Source: Maricaulis maris
GTDB taxonomy: Bacteria; Pseudomonadota; Alphaproteobacteria; Caulobacterales; Maricaulaceae
Length of the DNA: 64,000 nucleotides
Assembly (NCBI RefSeq): GCF_036322705.1
Contig: NZ_AP027270.1
Span: forward strand, 1,985,501-2,049,500
Reading direction: 5' to 3'
Both the position numbers and the translations under genes were made by a program. This document shows positions 53,477-56,654 of the stretch, piece after piece. The notes under the pieces are model-generated. The model saw only the letters and a list, made by a program, of their open reading frames with translations. It did not search any database and was not told the origin of the DNA. The first letter of the stretch is position 1, and every line of letters starts with the position of its first letter.

Positions 53477-54910
53477 CTACTTCTTCGGCGCAGAGATGTG
53501 GATCGGGTGGCCCAGCGCGGTCAGTGCCGCTTCGGCGAAGCCTTCGGTCAGGGTCGGATGGACGTGGATCGTGCCGGCAATGTCGTCGAGGCGCGCGCCC
53601 ATCTCGACCGCCAGGGCGAACTCGCCGGACAGTTCCGAGACATGAGTGCCGACGGCATGGATACCGAGGATGACATGGTCGTCCTTGCGGGCCGTAACCC
53701 GCACGAAGCCGCCATCGGCCCCCGCTTCCATCGACAGGTAGCGCCCCGAGGCGGCAAGCGGGAATTTGCCGGTGATGATCTCTTCACCCTTCGCCTTGGC
53801 CTCGTCCGGCGTCAGGCCGACACCGACGACTTCCGGCTCGGTGAAGCAGACGGCGGCAATGGAGACCGGGTCATGAACGCGGCGATGACCGGCAATGATC
53901 TCGGCGACCATTTCGCCCTGGGCGGTCGCCTTGTGGGCCAGCAGCGGCTCGCCGACGACATCGCCGATGGCATAGACGCCGCGCATGCCGGTGCGGCACT
54001 GATTGTCGACCTTGATGAATTTCCCGCCCTCGAGGTCGAGACCCATGTTTTCCAGACCCCAGCCGTCAAGGCAGGCCTTGCGACCGACCGCTACGAGGAT
54101 CTTGTCGGCGGAAATGGTCTGCTCCGCACCCTTGGCGTCTTCATAGGCGAGAACGGCCTTGCCGCCCTTTTCCGTGACGCCCTTGGCCTTGCAGGAGAGG
54201 TTCACATCGACCTTGTGCTTCTTCAGCCACATCGTGATCGGACGGGTGATCTCCTTGTCATAGAGCGGCAGGATGCCGTCCGAGGCTTCGATGAAGGTGA
54301 CCTTGGAGCCCAGCTTGCGGAAGGCGATGCCCAGTTCGAGGCCGATATAGCCGGCACCGACAACGACCAGCTCCTGCGGCAGCTCGGACAGGTCAAGCGC
54401 ATCGGTCGAGCCGATCACCGTGTCGCTGAACGGCAGGAAGGGCAGCTCGACCTCGACCGAGCCGGTGGCCAGGATGACATTCTCGGCCGTTATCTCGACC
54501 TTTTCGCCATTGTCCTGTGTGACGACACAGGTCTTGGCGTTGGAGAATTCGGCCCAGCCGGCAATATGCTCGGCGCCGGCAGCCTTGATCAGCTGGCCGA
54601 CCCCGCCGGTCAGCTTGGCGACGATCCCGTCTTTCCAGCCGACCAACTTGCCCATGTCCAGCTTCGGCGCCTCGGCGAGCGAGATGCCCAGCTCATCGCC
54701 GGTCGCATGCTTTGACATGTCCTCGAACTTGGTCGCAGCATGGATCATCGCCTTGGAGGGGATGCAGCCGCGATTGAGGCAGGTTCCGCCCAGACCGTGC
54801 TTGTCGACAATGATGGTGTCGAGGCCCAGCTGGCCGGCGCGAATGGCGGCCGGATAGCCGCCCGGGCCACCACCGACAATGAGAACCTGGCAGGTACGGG
54901 TCTGGGTCAT
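53477..54910 (-). CDS. lpdA: Dihydrolipoamide dehydrogenase (E3)
   Basis: FAD-dependent E3 that reoxidises lipoyl groups of 2-oxoacid dehydrogenases. FAD motif LIVGGGPGGYPAAIRAG, redox pair GGTCLNRGCIPSKA, NAD motif VVVGAGYIGLELG and the C-terminal HVHPTLTEGFAEAA with the catalytic His-Glu pair are all present. ATG 54910 is preferred (AGGAG eight bases upstream). It lies 2 kb from the bkd operon, on the same strand, and is the likely E3 for it. Confidence 0.95.
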   Translation of the reverse strand: MTQTRTCQVLIVGGGPGGYPAAIRAGQLGLDTIIVDKHGLGGTCLNRGCIPSKAMIHAATKFEDMSKHATGDELGISLAEAPKLDMGKLVGWKDGIVAKLTGGVGQLIKAAGAEHIAGWAEFSNAKTCVVTQDNGEKVEITAENVILATGSVEVELPFLPFSDTVIGSTDALDLSELPQELVVVGAGYIGLELGIAFRKLGSKVTFIEASDGILPLYDKEITRPITMWLKKHKVDVNLSCKAKGVTEKGGKAVLAYEDAKGAEQTISADKILVAVGRKACLDGWGLENMGLDLEGGKFIKVDNQCRTGMRGVYAIGDVVGEPLLAHKATAQGEMVAEIIAGHRRVHDPVSIAAVCFTEPEVVGVGLTPDEAKAKGEEIITGKFPLAASGRYLSMEAGADGGFVRVTARKDDHVILGIHAVGTHVSELSGEFALAVEMGARLDDIAGTIHVHPTLTEGFAEAALTALGHPIHISAPKK

Positions 54911-55084
54911 GAAAGGCACTCCTGATACTGGCGCGGCTCAAGTGAACGGTGGTTTAGACCGGCACGGCGTCGGCGGAAAGGGGGCGGGTGCGCCTGGAAG
55001 GCCCGACGAATTGGCAGGTTGAATGTCTGCCTCAAGTTTCTACGATGGACTCTCGGCATTTGTGCACTTGAAAAAGGGATCACA

Positions 55085-55735
55085 ATGCGCGCTGCATGGA
55101 TCGTCATGGCTTGTCTGCTGACAGGAGCAGCCAATGCTCAAAGTGAATGTGTCCAGATCCAGTCCACACAGGGCTGGCAGGCGGTGCAATTTCTCGAGGC
55201 ACCGGTCGATATTGCCAGCATCAGCGGGAGCTGGACAGTGGATACAGCGATCAGCCGGAGCAGCTATGCGGGCCATCAAGGCGCCGATGCCCAGCGGCTC
55301 GAACCCTTTTCTGCCTACAAGTACGACCAGAATTACGCCTTCGGACAGCTCCTCCTCCGGGCACAAGGCCGCGACCAGGTTATTGCGCCCCGTCCGTCAA
55401 TCGGGAACGGGCAGGTCACGCGGATCTGGGGGAGCGGCCCGGTTGAGTTCAGGATCAATGACGCGGATGCCGCGCTCGGCGATAATGCGGGTGTCCTGAC
55501 GGTCTGCGTCAGCCCCGTCGGCAGCGAGGCCGCCACATCGCCCGCGTCGTCCGCTGCGTCGGCGGGCAACGGGGCCGCAAGCGCTTCTTCCTCCACGACG
55601 GCGGCGCCTGCCGAGCGGGCAGCGGGCCGGAGCGAATGGATGGCCTGCTTCAATGACTCCCGTGAAAGCGATGCCGAGTCCAATCGGCTCCGTCGCTGGC
55701 GATCGGAGATCCGCAGCGCCGAGCGGGCACTTTAG
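55085..55735 (+). CDS. Secreted protein, amber-truncated coiled-coil region (5' part)
   Basis: The protein starts with a signal peptide (MRAAWIVMACLLTGAANAQ) and continues through a beta-rich globular part (SGSWTVDTAISRSSY, RIWGSGPVEFRINDAD), a low-complexity Ala/Ser stretch, and the beginning of a charged helix (ESDAESNRLRRWRSEIRSAERAL). A TAG at 55733-55735 ends this frame, but the same frame stays open to 56053 and continues the helix. ATG 55085 is chosen over an upstream Met because it opens the signal peptide. Not recognised as a known family. Confidence 0.65.
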   Translation: MRAAWIVMACLLTGAANAQSECVQIQSTQGWQAVQFLEAPVDIASISGSWTVDTAISRSSYAGHQGADAQRLEPFSAYKYDQNYAFGQLLLRAQGRDQVIAPRPSIGNGQVTRIWGSGPVEFRINDADAALGDNAGVLTVCVSPVGSEAATSPASSAASAGNGAASASSSTTAAPAERAAGRSEWMACFNDSRESDAESNRLRRWRSEIRSAERAL

Positions 55736-56053
55736 CGACGCGCCGACGGACTACAGGATGAGCGCAATCACCTCAGCTATTCCTTCAATAGCGATGCCTA
55801 CGGTGTTGCGGACCGGGCCCGCGCCAATCAGGTGCGCATGCACCAGGATCGGGTCGATGCCTATAATGACGACGTGGACGATTTGCAGGACGAGCTGGAC
55901 GATTATAACCGGGACGCCGCCGACCATGACGCCCGGGATGATGCCTGGCGCGCCCGCTGCGGCGGGGTGCTGTTCGACAACCCGCGGGAATGGGCGCGAC
56001 AATATTGTGTCGGCAATGCTGCGAGCACCTCGTTCTGCGAGGCGTTCGACTAG
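55736..56053 (+). pseudogene. Same-frame continuation after the TAG (3' part)
   Basis: In phase with the preceding gene, the frame runs 106 codons past the TAG and ends at a TAG at 56051-56053. It encodes a charged helix (DRVDAYNDDVDDLQDELDDYNRD then DARDDAWRARCGG) and a Cys-rich end (ARQYCVGNAASTSFCEAF), with GC-rich codon use like a real gene. This is best explained as a single nonsense change in a ~320-residue gene, or as programmed amber read-through. An in-frame GTG at 55832 could allow separate translation. Confidence 0.6.
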
Positions 56054-56154
56054 CGTAACACCGGCACGGGAACCCGCAGACGTCTAGGCACGATAACGGG
56101 GTTCCAAGCCGGGTTTGGCGGCTCGGCGAATAAGGGGAAAGAGCCGGACTCAGG

Positions 56155-56364
56155 CTAGGTGCGCCGGATCACCCGGCGCCAGAGCAGCGAACCGACCGGT
56201 GCCAGCACCAGGACCACGAGGCAGCTGCCGAACACGATCTGCGGCATCCACTCGGACGGCATGCCCATCTTCTTGTGATAGAACATCAGCACAAACACGC
56301 CGCCGCCCCAGACCGCAAGGGCTGAGACGAGGTCGGACCAAGTTTGTTTCAGGACTGACGGCAT
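56155..56364 (-). CDS. Small membrane protein
   Basis: A 69-residue protein with two hydrophobic segments (LVSALAVWGGGVFVLMFY and FGSCLVVLVLAPVGSLLW) and a basic end. ATG 56364 has GGGAG seven bases upstream. It lies beside a similar small membrane gene on the same strand. No family recognised. Confidence 0.5.
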   Translation of the reverse strand: MPSVLKQTWSDLVSALAVWGGGVFVLMFYHKKMGMPSEWMPQIVFGSCLVVLVLAPVGSLLWRRVIRRT

Positions 56365-56411
56365 GGCAAAGCTCCCCTGCCCCTCGTTTTGCCGCTCACC
56401 CGATGTCCGGG

Positions 56412-56654
56412 TCAAGCCCTGTCACGCGCCGATCGACGACGGAAGGGTGGCCGTTTCGGTGCCATGGAAAGCCAGGCAGACCGTATGGCGACGTAGAGCA
56501 GTAATCCGAAAAAGGTCAGAACCTGACCGATCACGCTGGCAATAGATGGCCACCCCCAAAGCATCGGTCCGAGAAACAGGGTGACTGAAATCGCGACACA
56601 GACGGACAAGGCAAGCCCAAACCGGTCCAACATCCAATCCCATGGCCGAAACAT
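56412..56654 (-). CDS. Small membrane protein
   Basis: An 80-residue protein with two helices (LALSVCVAISVTLFLGPMLW, VIGQVLTFFGLLLYVAIRSAW) and an Arg-rich C-terminus. ATG 56654 has GGAGG five bases upstream. It may be co-transcribed with the next small gene downstream on the same strand. Function unknown. Confidence 0.5.
   Translation of the reverse strand: MFRPWDWMLDRFGLALSVCVAISVTLFLGPMLWGWPSIASVIGQVLTFFGLLLYVAIRSAWLSMAPKRPPFRRRSARDRA

Follow-up and report, generated by a model that had tools for sequence, protein, structure and literature searches.

The 64,000-base stretch of the Maricaulis maris genome analyzed here (the window) carries a plus-strand reading frame at 55085-56053 whose sole internal stop is a TAG at codon 217. 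Past this TAG, 105 sense codons lead to a terminal TAG at 56051-56053, and no frameshift is needed to read through both halves. A preliminary description of this DNA had reported a lone in-frame TAG at codon 217 without a frameshift, which our reading of the frame confirmed; it had also given 106 codons beyond the TAG, where the frame is indeed open and the count is 105 sense codons, or 106 including the stop. The 12 bases spanning the codon-217 TAG occur once in the 64-kb window, which has no bearing on the readings discussed below. The interrupted gene lies between a dihydrolipoamide dehydrogenase-like gene, which we take to be lpdA, and a small ORF for which no Pfam match was found (Table 1).

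Table 1 Features of the interrupted gene and its neighbors in the window
Feature	Coordinates	Strand	Remarks
216 codons before the stop	55085..55732	+	Signal-peptide-like start (by eye), fast-evolving N-terminal part, Ala/Ser-rich linker, start of conserved C-terminal module
In-frame TAG, codon 217	55733..55735	+	Column holds a charged sense residue in 3/3 accepted relatives
105 codons and terminal TAG	55736..56053	+	Remainder of conserved module: end of helix 1, helix 2, three conserved cysteines
Dihydrolipoamide dehydrogenase-like gene, synteny anchor	53477..54919	-	First 200 codons matched in 19/19 genus genomes
Small membrane-protein-like ORF	56155..56415	-	Judged by eye

The product of the gene is probably an exported two-part protein, in which an N-terminal domain is joined by a linker to a helical-hairpin module with conserved cysteines. 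Pfam and NCBIfam scans, which took the window's two pieces and left out the relatives, gave no match for either piece at E values up to 1, apart from one sub-threshold Pfam match of the piece after the TAG to Zn_ribbon_NUD (E = 0.16). The word "secreted" in the preliminary description goes back to the signal-peptide-like N terminus, judged by eye, and "coiled-coil" is compatible with two long helices predicted, at modest confidence, for the closest relative.

This relative was found in a family search of 137 genomes, in which the gene was present in two, the window's own genome included; the other copy (locus L004, contig NZ_JADFAJ010000012) belongs to a Maricaulis MAG, G068. A match 21 residues long in a Lachnospiraceae MAG (locus L005) was taken as due to chance. 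The G068 protein is encoded by a single uninterrupted frame of 323 residues that also terminates in TAG. Its similarity to the window gene is unevenly distributed: while identity is 27.5% over 142 aligned codons of residues 1-148, it reaches 81% over residues 181-216 and 82% over residues 218-322, and the alignment runs gapless through the stop site. A structure model of the G068 protein (with the first methionine missing) contains helices at residues 176-237 and 243-297, and the stop column falls in the former. The mean pLDDT of the model is low (53.7), with ten-residue block means mostly between 56 and 78 across both helices. The G068 protein had no match in plasmid and phage records, and a PDB sequence search returned a sole match with an E value of 0.74.

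The 2 genomes with a strong match among the 19 surveyed in the genus indicate that the gene is dispensable there. Its surroundings were compared using lpdA as the anchor. Among the 18 other genus genomes, 9 have the small ORF no more than about 105 bases from lpdA (L062, L063, L064, L065, L070, L071, L074, L075, and L076), and two have it further away, with other ORFs between (L067 and L068); in the remaining 7/18, the stretch read yielded no such ORF. The window has the interrupted gene flanked by lpdA and the small ORF, whereas in G068 the small ORF separates the gene from lpdA. As the slot differs between the two genomes and both slots are near lpdA, the gene behaves as a sporadic accessory gene, and the spot near lpdA (window 54919-56155; L004 5524-6972) may be an insertion hotspot.

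The preliminary description had stated that coding potential persists past the TAG, with GC-rich codon use. Third-position G+C is indeed 0.72 before the TAG and 0.73 after it. A codon-usage score trained on 22 window ORFs gave +31 bits for the 105 codons after the TAG, where the antisense frame scored +20, and only +5.8 bits for the 216 codons before it; codon usage by itself is thus weak evidence for coding past the TAG. A scan of the window for same-frame tandem coding pairs returned 10 other pairs, the interrupted gene not being among them. Such adjacency says little because these pairs are common in the window and include neighboring separate genes. At the level of sequence, it is homology that settles the coding nature of the stretch after the TAG, in that G068 aligns without a gap through the site and is about as similar after it as before. 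Likewise, dN/dS relative to G068 is 0.13 for residues 177-216 (bootstrap 0.037-0.336; 0.154 when the stretch before the site is begun at residue 181) and 0.125 for residues 218-322 (bootstrap 0.056-0.23), so that constraint, as measured on these aligned codons, shows no sign of ending at the TAG. Because dN/dS integrates the whole divergence from G068, these values neither date the stop nor rule out continued selection. When residue changes beyond the site are polarized, 6 fall to the window, 2 to G068, and 11 to neither, numbers too small to decide anything. We also considered a separate second gene after the TAG and rejected it, as no in-frame start precedes a GTG at 55832, 32 codons past the TAG, and in the relative both parts form one frame.

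More distant relatives were sought with a profile of the C-terminal module over a sample of 398 genomes of the order. Besides the window genome and G068, seven weak matches were obtained, one of which, G301, was accepted after its frames had been read; the others (G184, G013, G212, G291, G433, and G410) were rejected as relatives on frames read by eye, as were the weak genus-level matches in G071 and G079, and seven further weak genus-level matches (G078, G077, G075 twice, G073, G076, and G074) were dropped on E value. G301 has an open stretch of 425 residues that begins with a different N-terminal part and closes with the module, and its identity is 28%. A profile including G301, run over 105 genomes of the G301 family, recovered G301 and one more copy, G449 (E = 4.4e-36), from a genome that is 74% complete. 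At class level, sampling 385 genomes brought up two more weak matches, G496 (E = 2.5e-4) and G790 (E = 6.5e-4), neither of which we counted; G496, which is an exported-looking helical protein, may be remotely related.

Residues 177-322 of the window gene align with the helical cysteine module of these exported-looking proteins, with gaps of 7, 16, and 3 residues in G301 and G449, and three cysteines near the end are common to all four rows (window, G068, G301, and G449). Unlike the other three copies, the window copy of the module is cut by a TAG. The TAG column holds a charged sense residue in G068, G301, and G449, the last two being distant, so that their residue at this column hinges on the alignment. 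On these comparisons, the TAG is private to the source genome among those examined.

The preliminary description had left three options, a recent nonsense mutation, a sequencing error, and amber read-through. The homologue comparison supports the first, with a sense codon at the site in 3/3 relatives, and lends no support to read-through, as the conserved TAG that would have favored it was seen in 0/3. Nor do the homologues end at residue 217; their similarity extends beyond it. As in a gene interrupted by a nonsense mutation, the uninterrupted relatives are similar on both sides of the stop, no further lesion is present, and constraint continues beyond it. We therefore consider it probable that a single recent, lineage-specific nonsense mutation struck a rare accessory gene in the sequenced strain or its lineage. 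Translation would end after residue 216, leaving a product that lacks helix 2 and the final three conserved cysteines and would probably be non-functional. The mutation appears recent because no second lesion is seen, an argument drawn from one genome per species and one close relative. If this is correct, the locus is one more recently broken accessory gene and of little significance in itself. It does illustrate how a simple comparison of homologues can tell a private stop apart from a recoding stop that is conserved.

Single-stop interruptions of this kind have been surveyed by Belinky et al. 2021 (PMC7918605). In that paper, many bacterial in-frame stops are argued not to make pseudogenes, in-frame stops with dN/dS below 1 are described as widespread, and such stops tend to be short-lived, on the scale of population polymorphism. 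The window gene likewise has one TAG, an open frame past it, and low dN/dS across it, and to this extent fits the pattern described there. However, the large-scale study retained stops found in orthologues of at least two species, whereas here the stop is in one genome.

It is unlikely that the TAG is a base-calling or assembly error, with a sense codon at the site in the living organism. An error, too, would show up as one lone substitution within a frame that is conserved elsewhere. However, the source genome is a single contig of 3,142,398 bases (3.14 Mb), rated 100% complete, in which the DNA of the interrupted gene matches once, and finished assemblies seldom contain substitution errors. 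Moreover, a partial check for further split genes in the window found none: five of the ten tandem pairs were scanned against Pfam, of which two had different families on each side and three had no hits and were uninformative.

Leaky amber read-through, in which a little full-length protein would be made beside the 216-residue form, seems quite unlikely. Preservation downstream of the TAG equals that of the conserved stretch immediately upstream, and PMC7918605, where bacterial in-frame stops with dN/dS below 1 are described as widespread, also speaks for read-through. On the other side, the TAG is missing from all three accepted relatives, and the terminator of the gene itself is likewise TAG. 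In the window, TAG terminates 9 of the 22 long ORFs, as well as the interrupted gene and its G068 relative; judged on these window ORFs rather than the whole genome, TAG is an ordinary stop and is not reassigned. The 100 nt 3' of the stop fold no better than chance (z = 0.35; fold equaled or bettered by 123 of 200 shuffles). A suppressor or recoding tRNA is one route to read-through, although one is not always needed. A CUA anticodon was found in none of the 43 Rfam tRNA matches of the genome (42 named by ARAGORN and the remaining one read from its loop), a set that is perhaps incomplete, having neither a tRNA-Ala(TGC) nor an ARAGORN-called tRNA-Ile(GAT). Programmed read-through is thus unlikely. 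One form of it, a UAG leaky by design, whereby the majority of chains would terminate behind the N-terminal domain, a minority would extend through the helical cysteine module, and two exported isoforms would arise without a suppressor tRNA, is highly improbable; were read-through real, the gene would be a bacterial case of two exported isoforms made from one gene.

The tRNA set itself has two peculiarities. The absence of tRNA-Ala(TGC) and of an ordinary tRNA-Ile(GAT) from the 43 matches perhaps reflects masked rRNA operons, which is a guess. In addition, a tRNA-like gene (L059 101-208, minus strand; G000:C1:2810999-2811106) scores 51 bits against the Rfam tRNA model and is the one match uncalled by ARAGORN. 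Its variable region is long (the Rfam alignment shows 37 inserted letters), and its anticodon loop, CUGAUAC, has GAU at the anticodon. Its body looks serine-type, which would make an odd pairing with an isoleucine-type anticodon.

We regard it as very unlikely that the TAG yields a shortened functional protein made up of the N-terminal domain, the linker, and part of one helix. The Ala/Ser-rich linker separates the N-terminal part from the module, so the former might fold alone, and G301 and G449 pair the module with a different N-terminal part, which implies that the two parts are separable in evolution. However, the stop lies inside helix 1 of the conserved module rather than at the linker, and the N-terminal part is the less conserved of the two (27.5% versus 82%).

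Apart from the nonsense mutation that we favor for the window copy, the module deserves mention in its own right, being small, C-terminal, and carried by exported-looking proteins of the order, with no Pfam or NCBIfam family assigned to its window copy. Across the order, this helical cysteine module is found behind differing N-terminal parts in exported-looking proteins; in G301 (L088) and G449 (L089), it sits behind an N-terminal part that, by eye, looks unrelated.
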